A stretch of 64,000 bases of DNA. Source: a bacterium (lineage in GTDB: Bacteria > Joyebacterota > Joyebacteria > Joyebacterales > Joyebacteraceae). The number at the start of each line of letters is the position of its first letter. Position 1 is the first letter of the stretch. This document shows, in pieces, positions 25,716 through 31,874 of this stretch. Below the pieces are notes generated by a model that was given only the letters and a program-made list of their open reading frames with translations, was not told the origin of the DNA and did no database searches. Both the position numbers and the translations under genes were made by a program. The stretch spans positions 62,001 to 126,000 of the forward strand of contig JALGZK010000002.1 of NCBI GenBank assembly GCA_025774935.1. Reading direction: 5' to 3'.

Positions 25716-25749
25716 CGACTCATGCGCGGACGGGAGGAGGAGGATCGAC

Positions 25750-26355
25750 ATGCTCAGGACACTTGGGATCATCATCGTACTCGCAGTCGTCGGGGCGGCG
25801 ACGATCGGATTCGCGCGTTCCGGCAACCCGCCCGACGCCAGGACCGGGGCGCCGGGGGAGAGCACGTGCGCTGGTTGCCACGGCAACCTGAACGTCGGCG
25901 GCGGCTCGGTCACGGTGACCGCCCCGGACTCTTTCACGCCCGGCGACACCGTGGACGTGTTCGTCCAGGTCGAGCGCGCGGGGCAGTCGCGGTGGGGATT
26001 CGAGGTAACGGTCCTCGACGGCGCGGACCAGCCGGCCGGCGACATCATCCTGACGGAGCCCGCCCGGACGCAGCTCTCGGTGGCCGGGGGAACCGGGCGG
26101 CAGTACGTGAAGCAGACGTCGCTCGGAACCGATCCCGGGACGCCGAATCTCTCGCCGGGGTGGGGATTCCGATGGGCTTCACCTGTCTCGACGCCCGGCG
26201 CCGTGTCGTTCTACATCGTCGGGATCGCAGCGAACGGGAACGGCGGCACGAGTGGCGACTACACGTACACCGACGTCCACGTCATGGACGGTGTGAGTGC
26301 ATCCATCGAGGAGGATCGAACCACGTGGGGCAAGGTCAAGGCACTCTTCCGCTGA
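25750..26355 (+). CDS. Secreted CxxCH protein (choice-of-anchor V / Reeler-like), TWG-IK tagged, paralogue 1
   Basis: The 201-residue protein has a signal peptide (MLRTLGIIIVLAVVGAATIGFA), then 'RTGAPGESTCAGCHGNLNVGGG' containing a CxxCH haem-c motif, a beta-sandwich ('VTVTAPDSFTPGDTVDVFVQVERAGQSRWGFEVTVLD'), and ends DRTTWGKVKALFR at the stop. The 'GAPGE.TCxxCHG' plus sandwich combination recalls the 'choice-of-anchor V' domain, named because its members carry different C-terminal sorting signals. The assignment is from memory of the family and should be checked. First of three tandem paralogues; the start follows GGAGGAGGA. Likely periplasmic or extracellular. Confidence 0.8.
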   Translation: MLRTLGIIIVLAVVGAATIGFARSGNPPDARTGAPGESTCAGCHGNLNVGGGSVTVTAPDSFTPGDTVDVFVQVERAGQSRWGFEVTVLDGADQPAGDIILTEPARTQLSVAGGTGRQYVKQTSLGTDPGTPNLSPGWGFRWASPVSTPGAVSFYIVGIAANGNGGTSGDYTYTDVHVMDGVSASIEEDRTTWGKVKALFR

Positions 26356-26401
26356 GCGCCTGGGATCTCCGCAGCAATGGATCAGGCCAGGAGGTGGCAT
26401 C

Positions 26402-27007
26402 ATGCTGCGCACAGTCTGGTTGATCGCGATTCTCGGAACGCTCGCATGTGCGGGCGCCGCAGTCGGCTTCTCCACGGGACCACCGGACGGAGCAACGGGA
26501 GCCCCCGGTGAGTTCACCTGTGCCGACTGCCACGGCAACCTGAACGTGGGCGACGGTACGATGACCGTGACGGCGCCGACCTCGTACGCTCCCGGGGACA
26601 CCATCGACGTGTCCCTCAAGGTCGAGCAGGAGGGTCAGGTTCGCTGGGGGTTCGAGCTGACCGTGCTCGATGCCGCCGACCTGCCGGTAGGAGACATCAT
26701 CGTGACCGAGCCTACGCGTACGCAGCTGTCGATAGGCGGCGTGACGTTCCGTCAGTACCTCAAGCACACGGCCCTCGGGACCGACCTCGGTACTCCCGAC
26801 GAGTCGCCCGGCTGGAGCTTCAAGTGGGCCTCCCCCGCAGTCGATCCTGGCCCCGTCACGTTCTACATTGCCGGGAACGCCGCGAACGGGGACGGTTCCA
26901 GCTCCGGGGACTTCATCTACACGAGCGTCTTCATGTACGACGACTCCCACTCGTTCATCGTTGACGAGGAGGCGACATGGGGCATGATCAAATCCCTCTA
27001 TCGGTAG
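26402..27007 (+). CDS. Secreted CxxCH protein (choice-of-anchor V / Reeler-like), TWG-IK tagged, paralogue 2
   Basis: The 201-residue paralogue of the previous gene lies 46 bases after it, with AGGAGGTGG before ATG 26402. Signal peptide MLRTVWLIAILGTLACAGAAVG; haem motif in 'GAPGEFTCADCHGNLNVGDG'; sandwich 'RWGFELTVLDAADLPVGDIIVTEPTRTQLS'; C-terminus DEEATWGMIKSLYR. The two proteins align along their whole length, so this is a tandem duplication. The cysteine in the signal peptide does not follow a convincing lipobox. Function unknown; electron transfer is suggested by CxxCH and by neighbours. Confidence 0.8.
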   Translation: MLRTVWLIAILGTLACAGAAVGFSTGPPDGATGAPGEFTCADCHGNLNVGDGTMTVTAPTSYAPGDTIDVSLKVEQEGQVRWGFELTVLDAADLPVGDIIVTEPTRTQLSIGGVTFRQYLKHTALGTDLGTPDESPGWSFKWASPAVDPGPVTFYIAGNAANGDGSSSGDFIYTSVFMYDDSHSFIVDEEATWGMIKSLYR

Positions 27008-27065
27008 TCGAACGCGATCGCAACTTGTCGGGGCGAACAACCAGCCCGGTAACAGAGAGAGCGAT

Positions 27066-27686
27066 ATGGAGGCAGAGAGCACAGTGACTCGAACGACAGG
27101 CGTAGGAGTGCTCGCGGTGGTTCTCGCGGCCAGCATCGCGCCCGGGGTCTCGGGGTCTGCGACCGTGCCACCCAACGCGTTCACGGGGGCTCCCGGAGAG
27201 CAGACGTGCGCCCTCTGCCACGGCAATCTGAATGTCGGCGACGGCTCCATCATCATCACGGCTCCGGATACGTACATTCCCGGCGTGTGGATCGACCTGA
27301 CGGTTCAGGTGGCGATGGATGGGCAGTCCCGCTGGGGCTTCGAGCTGACCGTGCTCGACGCCAACGATCTGCCGGTGGGCAACATCATTGAGACCGACCC
27401 CGTGCACACGCAGTACTCGTTCGACAGCACCACCGGCCGTGAATACCTGAAGCATACCGAAGCCGGCACGTACGACGGTTGGTCTGACGTGTCGCCAGGC
27501 TGGGAGTTCACGTGGGTTTCGCCCGGCAATGAGGCGCGGCCGGTCACCTTCTACATCGTCGGGAACGCAGCCAACGGAAGCGGGTTCCCAGACGGAGACT
27601 ATGTCTACACTCAGACCCTCACGTACCAAGACACAGGCGTTGACGACAAGAGGACATGGGGTATGATTAAGGCACTCTACCGATAG
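27066..27686 (+). CDS. Secreted CxxCH protein (choice-of-anchor V / Reeler-like), TWG-IK tagged, paralogue 3
   Basis: The 206-residue third copy lies 58 bases after paralogue 2. It has a signal peptide (TGVGVLAVVLAASIAPGVSG), 'GAPGEQTCALCHGNLNVGDG', the same RWGFELTVLD core and C-terminus DDKRTWGMIKALYR. It differs in the region before the tag (a Tyr-rich 'GDYVYTQTLTYQDTG'). It probably belongs to the same transcript as the other two, since no terminator separates them. It is presumed to be exported and to bind one haem c; neither is shown. Confidence 0.8.
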   Translation: MEAESTVTRTTGVGVLAVVLAASIAPGVSGSATVPPNAFTGAPGEQTCALCHGNLNVGDGSIIITAPDTYIPGVWIDLTVQVAMDGQSRWGFELTVLDANDLPVGNIIETDPVHTQYSFDSTTGREYLKHTEAGTYDGWSDVSPGWEFTWVSPGNEARPVTFYIVGNAANGSGFPDGDYVYTQTLTYQDTGVDDKRTWGMIKALYR

Positions 27687-27773: not shown

Positions 27774-28205
27774 ATGTCGAAGCTGAAGCACCTCTGGCCG
27801 GTTCTCTTTCTTGCGGTCGCTCTCATCGTGAGCTGCAGCTCGAGCGACCCGGGCTCGCCCGGCGACGGAAACGGCGGCGTCCCGGAGGACCCGTCGTTCG
27901 CCGATGACGTCCAGCCGATCTTCAACGCGAACTGCACTTCTCAGTTCTGCCACGGCGCGGGGGAGTCGGCGGGACTCAAGCTCACCTCCGGTGACTCGTA
28001 CGCGGAGCTCGTCGACGTGACCTCCACGAACGAGCCTCCGGCGAAGCGCGTCCTCGCGGACGACGCCGAGAACAGCTACCTAGTCATCAAGCTCGAGGGG
28101 CGACAGAGCGTAGGCGGCCGTATGCCACTGAACGCCGGCGCGCTCTCAGACGACGACATCCAGACGATCAGGAACTGGATCGACAACGGAGCCGAGGAGA
28201 ACTGA
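27774..28205 (+). CDS. Exported lipoprotein with cytochrome-c-like domain (CX4CH)
   Basis: The 143-residue protein has a lipoprotein signal with lipobox IVSC near residue 21, a Ser/Gly/Pro linker, and a cytochrome-c-like fold (about 40-140): 'FADDVQPIFNANCTSQFCHGAGESAGLKL' at the N-terminal side and 'GGRMPLNAGALSDDDIQTIRNWIDNGA', with its possible axial methionine, at the C-terminal side. The haem motif is CTSQFCH, i.e. CX4CH rather than CXXCH; such spacing occurs in multihaem cytochromes c3 but is unusual in this family. It lies between the CxxCH paralogues and the cytochrome/barrel gene. Confidence 0.78.
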   Translation: MSKLKHLWPVLFLAVALIVSCSSSDPGSPGDGNGGVPEDPSFADDVQPIFNANCTSQFCHGAGESAGLKLTSGDSYAELVDVTSTNEPPAKRVLADDAENSYLVIKLEGRQSVGGRMPLNAGALSDDDIQTIRNWIDNGAEEN

Positions 28206-28240
28206 GCCAGAGCACCCCTGCCCGGAGGGTGGTACTGATC

Positions 28241-28831
28241 ATGAGAATCCCGCTCATCGTGGTCATGGTACTGACGTGTGCGACCGTCGCGTTCGCGGAC
28301 GCGCACGAGGAGGCCGAGGTCGACGCGCAGACGGTCGAGGAAGAGGCTGAAGCGAGACCGGTGCGGACGCCCGAGACGAAGGTAGCCGCGCTCTTCCAGG
28401 GCCGGTGCGCGGCATGCCACAGCGGCGAGCAGCCGGCGGCCGGACTCGTGCTGACGACCGACGGCTTCAGGACGGCAATCCTCGACGTCCCGAGCGTCGA
28501 GCTCGAGAAGCTCAAGATCATCGACACGGAGACATCAGACCAGAGCTACCTCCTCATGAAGGTCCGGGGCGATAAGGGCATTCAGGGAGGTCGCATGCCG
28601 GCAGGCATGCCTCCTCTGGAGGACGAGGAGATCCAGGTCATCGAGGAGTGGATCGCCTTCGTCATCGCCGCGCGGGCCGCGGAGGCAGCCGAGGAGGAAG
28701 AGGGCGCCGCGGGAGCCGCCGCAGGCGCTGCCGCCGCAGGCGCTGCCGCCGCCGGAGCGGCCTCCGAGGACGCGAGTCCCGCCGATGAGGACGCTTCGCC
28801 CGGCGAGACCGAAGGAAAAAAAAAGCCCTAG
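28241..28831 (+). CDS. Exported c-type cytochrome with Ala-rich tail, likely joined by -1 frameshift to the barrel
   Basis: The 196-residue product starts at ATG 28241 after GGAGGGTGG. It has a signal peptide (MRIPLIVVMVLTCATVAFA), an acidic linker, and a cytochrome domain (about 45-145) with CAACH in 'LFQGRCAACHSG' and 'GGRMPAGMPPLEDEEIQVIEEWIAFV'. A long Ala/Gly/Glu-rich stretch follows, ending EGKKKP at a TAG. The final codons AAA AAA AAG form the slippery heptamer A AAA AAG (28819-28825). Slipping back one base continues into a DUF5777 barrel without a stop, giving a 460-residue fusion. A lost A in the nine-A run (28816-28824) is the alternative. Confidence 0.8.
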   Translation: MRIPLIVVMVLTCATVAFADAHEEAEVDAQTVEEEAEARPVRTPETKVAALFQGRCAACHSGEQPAAGLVLTTDGFRTAILDVPSVELEKLKIIDTETSDQSYLLMKVRGDKGIQGGRMPAGMPPLEDEEIQVIEEWIAFVIAARAAEAAEEEEGAAGAAAGAAAAGAAAAGAASEDASPADEDASPGETEGKKKP

Positions 28832-29622
28832 AAGCTGAGACGACCGAGACCGATGCGGCGTACGGGCTCCCGTACGCCGCATCTTCGTTCTCGGCGACCA
28901 GGCTCATCAACCTGCCGACGACGCGCCCCATCGGCGGCAACAGCATCCTCTTCAGGATCTCCCACCGATTCGTGCCCGCGACCAAGACCGGCTACGAGAC
29001 GTTCTACGGCGTGAACGGCCCGGCCGTCATTCTGCTCGGCCTCGGGTACGGGATCACCGACCAGGTCGGCGTCATGCTCGAGCACACGAACCTCTTCCAC
29101 GAGTACGAGCTCACGGTCACGTGGCTCGCACTCGAGCAGGAAGAGACTGGCATGCCTCTAACTCTCTCGCTCGCTGGGAGCAGCTGCCTCGTGACGCAGA
29201 AGTCGGAACCGGATGACGACGTCTTCGTGTCCGAGAACTTCAAGTTCACGTTCCAGTCGATGCTGGCGCGCCGGTTCGGCGACTCGTTCTCCGTCCTCGT
29301 CGCGCCGATCTACGCGACGAACACCGACCACTGGGAGGAGACCTCCGATAGCACCTTCGCGATCGGCGTCGGCGGACGCTGGATCGTCACCGGTGGATTC
29401 TCGCTCACGGGAGAGTGGATCCCGGTCGTGAGCGGTTACTCGACGGGACACGACTCGTGGGGGCTCGGGCTCGACTGGGAGGTCGGAGGCCACGCGTTCC
29501 AGGTCGTGGTCACGAACTCACTCGGGCTCACGACCGACCAGTTCATACCGGGAGGCGACCTCAGGTTCTCGGACAGCGAGGTCAGGATAGGGTTCAGCAT
29601 CTTCAGGACGTTCTGGCTCTAG
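28825..29622 (+). CDS. DUF5777-like outer-membrane beta-barrel without its own start codon
   Basis: In the -1 frame the sequence reads on from the slippery site for 265 residues: '[21 protein letters not shown]', '[13 protein letters not shown]', '[29 protein letters not shown]', and alternating beta strands to the C-terminal '[13 protein letters not shown]', whose terminal aromatic residue is outer-membrane-like. The N-terminal 'F.ATR..N' and 'FRISHRF' elements match DUF5777 as I recall it. There is no ATG, GTG or TTG in frame before GTG 28972, which lies inside the domain, and no signal peptide of its own. It therefore appears to depend on the cytochrome gene for both start and export signal. 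Confidence 0.7.
28853..28882 (+). repeat. Perfect 14-base inverted repeat inside the cytochrome/barrel junction
   Basis: ATGCGGCGTACGGG and CCCGTACGCCGCAT are separated by only two bases. It begins 27 bases after the slippery site and 21 bases after the cytochrome stop. It could be a stimulatory RNA hairpin, a protein site or a weak terminator; there is no strong T-tract after it. Confidence 0.75.
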
Positions 29623-29684: not shown

Positions 29685-31874
29685 ATGGAGTGGGCGTGGA
29701 CGCAGCACCTGATGCTCGGCGTGGCGTCGCTCGCAGTCGCGATGGTTCTCGGCGACCCGGGCGAGAGCGCCGTGCCGAACGACGATGTGGGGCGGAAGGC
29801 GAACAGACTCATCGACGAGAAGAGCCCGTACCTCCTGCAGCACGCCCACAATCCCGTGGACTGGTACCCCTGGGGAGCCGAGGCGTTCGCCCGCGCCGCG
29901 CGGGAGGACAAGCCGATCTTCCTCTCGATCGGGTACTCGACCTGTCACTGGTGTCACGTGATGGAGAGGGAGTCGTTCGAGGACCCCGAGGTCGCCGCGC
30001 TCATGAACGACGCATTCGTGTGCATCAAGGTCGACCGCGAGGAACGTCCGGACATCGACGGCGTCTACATGGAGGTAGCGCAGCTCATGACCGGACGAGG
30101 GGGATGGCCCCTCACCATCATCATGACGCCCGACAAGCAACCGTTCTACGCCGCGACCTATATCCCCAAGGAGGACCGTTTCGGGCTCCCGGGGATGATG
30201 GCCGTTGTTCCGCGCATCCAGGAGCTCTGGTCGACGCGGCGCGACGACCTCGTCGCCACGGCCGGCCAGGTCGTCGCCGCGCTGTCCGAGGCGCCCGCCG
30301 GAGCGGCCGGCCCCGATCTCGGCGCCGAGACGCTCTCGGCCACGTACGAGCAACTCGCCGCGGCGTACGACCCTGTCCACGGCGGGTTCGGCGCGTCGCC
30401 GAAGTTCCCGACGCCGCACAACCTCCTCTTCCTGCTCCGTTACTGGAACCGGACCGGCGAGCCCGGCGCTCTCGAGATGGTCGAGACGACGCTCGGGGCG
30501 ATGCGGCGGGGCGGGGTCTACGACCACGTCGGATTCGGGTTCCATCGATACTCGACCGACGCCGAATGGCTCCTCCCCCACTTCGAGAAGATGCTCTACG
30601 ACCAGGCGATGCTCGCCATGGCGTACGTGGAGGCATACCAGGCGACCGGGAGCGAAGAGTACGCCCGGACCGCCCGCGAGATACTGACGTACGTCCTTCG
30701 CGACATGACGTCCCCCGAGGGAGGCTTCTACTCGGCCGAGGATGCCGACAGCGAAGGCGAGGAGGGGAAGTTCTACGTCTGGACGACGGGCGAGGTCGGC
30801 GAGGTACTAGACAAGGAACACGCGGAACTCGCGGTCCGGTTCTTCGGCATGCGAGACGGCGGCAACTTCGAGGACGAGGCGAGCGGGAAGAAGAGCGGCG
30901 CGAACATCCTGCACATGCCCGAGCCGCTCGAGGCAAAGGCCAGTTCGCTCGGGATCCACGCGCACGAGCTCTCGTCCCGGATCGACTCCGCGCGTCGGGA
31001 ACTCCTCGCCGTGCGGGAGAAGAGGATACGCCCCCTCCGCGACGACAAGATTCTGACCGACTGGAATGGCCTCATGATCGCGGCGTTCGCGAAGGCGGCG
31101 GCCGCGCTCGACGAGCCAGCGTACGCGGAGGCGGCAATGAAGAGCGCCGACTTCGTGCTCACGACGCTTCGCGGCGAGGACGGGCGAGTCCTTCACCGGT
31201 ACCGCGAGGGCGAGGCGGCGATCGAGGGGAACGCCGAGGACTACGCGTTCCTGGTGTGGGGATTGCTCGAGCTCTACGAGGCGACCTTCGAGCTCCGCTA
31301 CCTCGAGGCCGCGGAGCGGCTCAACGAGGACCTCCTCGAACGGTTCTGGGACGGCGAGGGCGGCGGAGTCTACTTCACTGCCACGGGAGCCGAGACGCTC
31401 CTCACGCGGCGCAAGGAGGTCTACGACGGCGCGATCCCCTCGAGCAACTCGATCACGATGCTGAACCTGCTGAGGCTCGGACGGATGACCGGCGACCCGT
31501 TGCTCGAGGAGCGCGCGGCCGCAATCGGGCGCGCCTTCTCCGGACAGGTCGCGCGCATGGCCATGGGACACACGCAGCTCATGAACGCCGTCGATTTCGG
31601 CGTCGGTCCCTCGCTCGAGGTCGTCATCGTCGGAAGTGGGACGGCCGAGGACACAGCCGCGCTCGTGGCCTCCGTGCGCGACGGCTACGCCCCCAGCAAG
31701 GTCGTCCTTCTGAAGGACACGGATGAACCCGGGGGCCTCCGCGGTCTCGCGGGATGGACCGACGCGCACGACGCCGTCGGCGGAGCGGCCGCCGCGTATG
31801 TCTGCCGGAACTACGAGTGCGACCTCCCCACGACCGATCCCGCCAGGTTGTCCGAGCTCCTCACGGGGCGATGA
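29685..31874 (+). CDS. DUF255 (YyaL/SPATA20-like) thioredoxin-fold protein with six-hairpin domain
   Basis: The 729-residue protein starts at ATG 29685 after GGGGAGG. It has an N-terminal hydrophobic segment (about 8-23) that may export or anchor it. A thioredoxin-fold domain follows (about 45-200) with '[25 protein letters not shown]' and the motif [18 protein letters not shown]-terminal glucosidase-like (alpha/alpha)6 region has '[17 protein letters not shown]' and '[14 protein letters not shown]'. The family's reaction is not established. Placement after exported haem proteins suggests redox or maturation work in the cell envelope; most family members are cytosolic, so the leader is notable. 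Confidence 0.9.

Follow-up and report, generated by a model that had tools for sequence, protein, structure and literature searches.

Organization of the locus

In the 64,000-nucleotide stretch of DNA analysed here (the window), an open reading frame (ORF) for a predicted secreted monoheme cytochrome c is followed in the -1 frame by the coding region of a DUF5777 outer-membrane beta-barrel, and a run of nine A residues (A9) lies at the junction of the two (Table 1). The cytochrome ORF could alternatively start at the GTG at 28229. It has a single CXXCH (CAACH, residues 56-60), and its product (P0001) scores 25.4 bits against the PF00034 cytochrome c profile (cut-off 21.3), so that both the heme-binding motif and the profile match expected of a class I c-type cytochrome are present in the predicted protein. 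Its C-terminus is an Ala/Gly/Glu-rich tail followed by GETEGKKKP directly before the stop codon.

Table 1. Predicted genes and sequence features at and around the cytochrome-barrel junction (positions in the window)
Feature	Position	Strand	Remarks
Three tandem paralogous choice-of-anchor V proteins (NF041895)	25744-27686		Upstream of the cytochromes; CXXCH in each
Small lipoprotein cytochrome	27774-28205		Directly upstream of the 28241 ORF; CX4CH (CTSQFCH) instead of CXXCH
Secreted monoheme cytochrome c ORF	28241-28831	+	196 aa: signal peptide, CAACH, Ala-rich linker, end GKKKP
Low-complexity Ala/Gly/Glu linker, cytochrome domain to slip site	28667-28815	+	From the codon alignment
A9 slip tract	28816-28824	+	Contains A AAA AAA and A AAA AAG
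0-frame TAG stop	28829-28831	+	Kept in 3 of 3 species; barrel frame reads CTA GAA or ATA GAT
DUF5777 outer-membrane beta-barrel	28825-29622	+	-1 frame; PF19089, E=1.6e-55; dN/dS 0.15-0.25
15-bp perfect inverted repeat (14-bp hairpin), GATGCGGCGTACGGG-CT-CCCGTACGCCGCATC	28852-28883	+	Early in the barrel gene, 26 nt downstream of the slip site
DUF255/Thioredox_DsbH (YyaL-like) gene	29685-31874		Directly downstream in 3 of 3 genus species

The barrel (P0002) covers the whole PF19089 model (positions 1-247 of 247) with a score of 188.5 bits, the cut-off being 23.1. Its frame is free of stops from 28789 up to 29620-29622, where it ends; the first ATG, GTG or TTG in this frame is found at 28972, already within the barrel, and a search of the -1 frame for a signal peptide of the barrel's own returned none. 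Independent initiation of the barrel can thus be ruled out, in agreement with the preliminary description of this DNA, which had stated that the barrel possesses neither a start codon nor a signal peptide; an upstream in-frame start was not found. Since the barrel lacks its own start, some translation must enter it via the tract. The predicted structure of the barrel has about 12 strands, the model being poor (mean pLDDT 51), and its Foldseek matches are outer-membrane phospholipase A and KdgM, which together hint at a small outer-membrane barrel.

Anatomy of the A9 tract

Read in the cytochrome frame, the junction is GGA AAA AAA AAG CCC TAG. The heptamer A AAA AAG, which the preliminary description had pointed out at the end of the cytochrome gene, is indeed located at 28819-28825 and in the slippery phase relative to this frame, and a -1 shift leads through an open frame to a product of 460 aa, the length which that description had given for a cytochrome-linker-barrel protein. 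Insertion of one A (10 A) or deletion of two (7 A) likewise results in the fused cytochrome-barrel frame, and tracts of 8, 9, 11 or 12 A result in tails of a few residues.

For codon and A-run statistics we used 360 kb of the contig together with pattern searches of the whole genome. The GC content of the genome is 66%, and AAA makes up 7.5% of the Lys codons in this contig. The 360 kb contain no A/T run of 7 or more apart from A9. The whole 3.24-Mb assembly (G000) contains five such runs, of which only A9 reaches 9, and the whole of the related genome G002 likewise has a single A/T run of at least 9. About 0.6 A9 runs per genome are expected under independent bases, so that one A9 is not improbable by composition. 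The weight of the A9 evidence rests on position and conservation rather than on mere presence.

Conservation of the junction within the genus

We compared the genomes, all of them MAGs, of the three species of the genus that have been sequenced, namely, G000 (the source of this DNA), G001 and G002. All three contain GGAAAAAAAAAGCC[C/A]TAGA in the same phase and with the same stop, and the context GGA9GCC[C/A]TAG is identical among them in tract length and phase. The barrel in L005, the public MAG counterpart of G002, is 88% identical and the junction is the same (GACGGAAAAAAAAAGCCCTAGAA), and in G001 the barrel is 77% identical with the junction GGAAAAAAAAAGCCATAGAT. The GKKKP end and the -1 barrel are thus alike in the three genomes despite dS values of 0.4-0.95; as they share one common ancestor, this agreement represents one evolutionary event that has been preserved. 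A 502-aa open frame in G001, considered as a possible plain fusion, turned out to read the cytochrome out of frame, and here, too, A9 and TAG form the junction.

The preliminary description had offered, as an alternative, that the run lacks one A, which would make the gene a plain fusion. Homopolymers are prone to sequencing and assembly errors and plain fusions do exist elsewhere (see below), but the same nine A occur in the same phase in three separate assemblies, with the TAG conserved one codon on, and we find this explanation hardly credible.

The segments around the tract are far from invariant. Several insertions and deletions in the linker before the tract, and a 12-base deletion in the segment after it, distinguish the species, and all of them are multiples of three, as are all differences in linker length in the codon alignment. 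Among 46 Lys codons aligned in the three species, only the two positions within A9 are AAA in all three (elsewhere 0 of 44), and the Gly codon GGA, which supplies the first A of the tract, is kept as well. We hold that A9 is maintained by selection, as judged from these alignments.

The barrel shows dN/dS values of 0.15-0.25 in all three species pairs (p about 1e-14 or less). For the G000/G002 pair, the value is already as low as 0.13 in the 30 codons that directly follow A9 (p=0.003). The corresponding values for the cytochrome in the three-species codon alignment are 0.30-0.43, so that constraint on the barrel is at least equal to that on the cytochrome. As the barrel is under purifying selection, it must be produced. 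It might otherwise be viewed as a decaying or dispensable remnant left after a frameshift, with the cytochrome as the sole product, a view that its missing start codon and signal peptide and the absence of DUF5777 from most other genomes of the phylum would seem to invite; however, the low dN/dS in three pairs, with no further stop or frame break in the barrel of any of the three species and with conservation of the barrel exceeding that of the cytochrome, makes such decay very improbable.

A homopolymer in the gene of a surface protein is also typical of a contingency locus, and porins are known to be phase-variable (PMC3711429), so that replication slippage could alter the length of the tract in a subpopulation of cells, with 7 or 10 A turning the barrel on and 9 A turning it off. 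Such a tract should vary, whereas exactly nine A, the off phase, are found in 3 of 3 species despite dS of up to 0.95, a constancy that is read from MAG consensus sequences, in which minor variants could hide; moreover, G000 and G002 each have a single A/T run of at least 9. We consider DNA-level phase variation improbable.

Two further observations concern A runs in these assemblies. G001 has a second A9 (L092:1501-1509, corresponding to G001:C109:4164-4172). Located on the minus strand, it falls close to the 3' end of a long ORF (...LERKKKTEKELAVTV); it is absent from G000 and G002 and is possibly a further candidate slip site. An assembly artefact is present at the ends of contigs G001:C61 and G008:C70 (L088:1-50 and L087:1480-1529), where the sequence resembles Illumina adapters and includes A10 or T10.

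Programmed slippage as the probable explanation

The locus displays two features of genes with programmed transcriptional slippage, an A or T tract of at least about nine where the frame changes and a shifted frame conserved as protein. We consider it quite likely that programmed slippage on A9 yields a free cytochrome and a cytochrome-barrel fusion, with RNA polymerase most likely slipping; we infer the occurrence of slippage, the slipping machine, the ratio of the products and the role in electron transfer alike. Cytochrome and barrel would then be one gene broken by a conserved slip tract. The majority of transcripts or ribosomes would read A9 as written and yield a free exported monoheme cytochrome c ending in GKKKP, and a minority would shift frame as if one A were added or two were removed. 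By the most probable route, RNA polymerase would slip on the T9 of the template and produce mRNAs with 10 or 7 A; their translation product, about 460 residues long, would consist of signal peptide, cytochrome, Ala-rich linker and DUF5777 barrel. The signal peptide of the cytochrome would export the barrel, which would insert into the outer membrane and hold the cytochrome at its periplasmic mouth. In mRNAs with 8 or 11 A, the frame would close within a few codons, giving a cytochrome with a slightly altered tail. The preliminary description had proposed that the proportion of free cytochrome to fusion is fixed by frameshifting; the comparative evidence speaks for the frameshifting, not for the ratio itself.

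The same two products could arise if the ribosome, and not the polymerase, slipped, through programmed -1 frameshifting at A AAA AAG or at the overlapping A AAA AAA. The heptamer is in the correct phase with a stop one codon on, and predicted stems begin 8, 10 and 11 nt after the slip codon in G000, G002 and G001, respectively, the distance expected for the conserved stem-loop of a dnaX-type site being 5-9 nt. The inverted repeat of G000 differs in G002 by one compensatory change (T-A to C-G), whereas G001 has a weaker hairpin instead; compared with random positions, the folding strength in G001 ranks 1142 of 4000, which is not above random, and that in the other two ranks 21 and 16. With a strength so ordinary in G001, the downstream hairpin was rejected as an essential stimulator. 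Upstream of the slip site, a GAGGA with a 12-nt spacer occurs in G001 only, and a Shine-Dalgarno-like motif at the spacing of dnaX (about 10 nt upstream) is absent in G000 and G002. The genome encodes both tRNA-Lys(CUU) and tRNA-Lys(UUU), so that the latter is not the sole tRNA-Lys, and tRNA-Lys(CUU) should grip AAG firmly, following the argument in PMC5009743; decoding of A AAA AAA by the UUU tRNA alone would soften this objection. Conservation of the tract also exceeds what the ribosomal motif needs, as all nine A are kept and A AAA AAG needs only six A and a G. On balance, we regard ribosomal frameshifting as unlikely, though a serious contender.

RNA polymerase slippage is favoured because both tRNA-Lys species are present and neither a Shine-Dalgarno-like element nor a hairpin is conserved as a stimulator. 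Nine A is the tract length of the slippage in Thermus dnaX, and nine is also the length at which selection against A/T runs becomes evident in many bacterial genomes (PMC1088944). A review has tied the presence of two tRNA-Lys to polymerase slippage in Thermus, contrasting it with E. coli (PMC5009743). Supposing that one of the two machines acts, we would name the polymerase with some preference and give the ribosome distinctly less credit.

Cytochrome-barrel fusions outside the genus

Within the family, DUF5777 is carried only by the three genus members and one further genome, G008. In G008, the cytochrome and DUF5777 are fused in frame and the A tract is absent. In-frame fusions were also found in three Candidatus Aminicenantes genomes, in L018 and L022, and in six further genomes, all from the phylum of G072. 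The predicted structure of an Aminicenantes fusion is poor as well (mean pLDDT 48). The fusions in Candidatus Aminicenantes, G008 and the phylum of G072 have homologous domains in the same order as the genus gene, the closest being 42-47% identical; they differ from it in that each is one open frame with a shorter linker and no A tract, whereas a slip tract separates the two parts of the genus gene. Aminicenantes fusions L001-L003 have a CX4CH (CSVSDCH), like the small lipoprotein cytochrome of Table 1.

Other relatives, L004 for example, have standalone barrels with their own start, and a search of a plasmid collection returned only distant (27-30%) DUF5777 barrels of Bacteroidota. The preliminary description had named separate orthologues, each with a start codon and a signal peptide, as evidence against a joined gene; this applies in part, as separate barrels with start and signal occur outside the genus, though not within it. 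Its view of a cytochrome-barrel protein as unusual does not hold, since in-frame fusions are found in at least three other lineages. The plain fusion probably preceded the slip-dependent gene with two products, into which the genus would then have turned it.

Neighbourhood and possible function

The neighbouring cytochromes and CXXCH proteins (Table 1) suggest an outer-membrane redox module. A choice-of-anchor V protein also adjoins DUF5777 in G008 and G077, and small lipoprotein cytochromes adjoin DUF5777 barrels in L108 and L110. In the outer membrane, to which the fusion would bring the barrel, a long and flexible linker would connect the barrel with the cytochrome, and the fusion may transfer electrons across the membrane. 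Taking these parts together, we tentatively propose, as a reading that may or may not hold as a whole, an outer-membrane cytochrome-barrel electron-transfer protein whose ratio of free to fused form is set by RNA polymerase slippage on the only nine-A run of the genome, a single genus having made a plain fusion into a gene with two products in a fixed ratio. A role in iron oxidation is not indicated for this protein, unlike for Cyc2.

A literature search combining transcriptional slippage, cytochrome and outer membrane yielded no relevant paper, and a mention of DUF5777 was not found in the literature searched. If our interpretation is true, this would be an outer-membrane redox protein in which recoding chooses between a free and a barrel-tethered cytochrome, and the in-frame relatives would be natural controls. 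More broadly, the cytochrome-barrel architecture is widespread and uncharacterised and may move electrons across the outer membrane. Annotation pipelines will label the gene as a cytochrome and a broken barrel.

Comparison with known systems

Few cases of programmed slippage are known in cellular genes, that is, non-mobile and non-viral ones; dnaX and genes of type III and type VI secretion are among them. As to the protein, the predicted fusion resembles Cyc2 in its signal peptide, its single CXXCH and the joining of a cytochrome, at the N-terminus, with an outer-membrane barrel (PMC8406198). In Cyc2, AXPXFAR[Q/K][T/Y] precedes the CXXCH, PXL follows it and the porin is 16-stranded (PMC8406198), whereas the barrel here is DUF5777, with about 12 strands in the poor model, and the fusion requires recoding. 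Both Cyc2 motifs were sought in this cytochrome and are absent, the sequence there being TPETKVAALFQGRCAACHSGEQPAAGL. The preliminary description was right in considering the barrel different from that of Cyc2.

As to the recoding, the gene shares with E. coli dnaX the in-phase A AAA AAG heptamer and a close stop; however, E. coli has a sole tRNA-Lys and the frameshift there leads to the shorter product, whereas two tRNA-Lys are present here and a Shine-Dalgarno-like element at the proper spacing is not conserved. In Citrobacter rodentium tssM1, an apparently interrupted gene is likewise restored to its long product by slippage and both lengths are made (20-25%, PMC4256274), but the tract is A11, the stop lies 28 nt downstream, the product is a T6SS protein and slippage was tested experimentally, whereas our case is known from sequence. 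With Thermus thermophilus dnaX, the gene shares a sense-strand A9 within the coding region, nearby stops in the alternative frames, two tRNA-Lys and the expectation of two C-terminal variants (PMC1088944, PMC5009743), although the gene is a different one and its unslipped frame yields the long product there and the short one here. The parallel to dnaX drawn in the preliminary description therefore stands for the phase of A AAA AAG, but given A9, the two tRNA-Lys and the lack of a conserved stimulator, the gene is nearer to the dnaX of Thermus than to that of E. coli.
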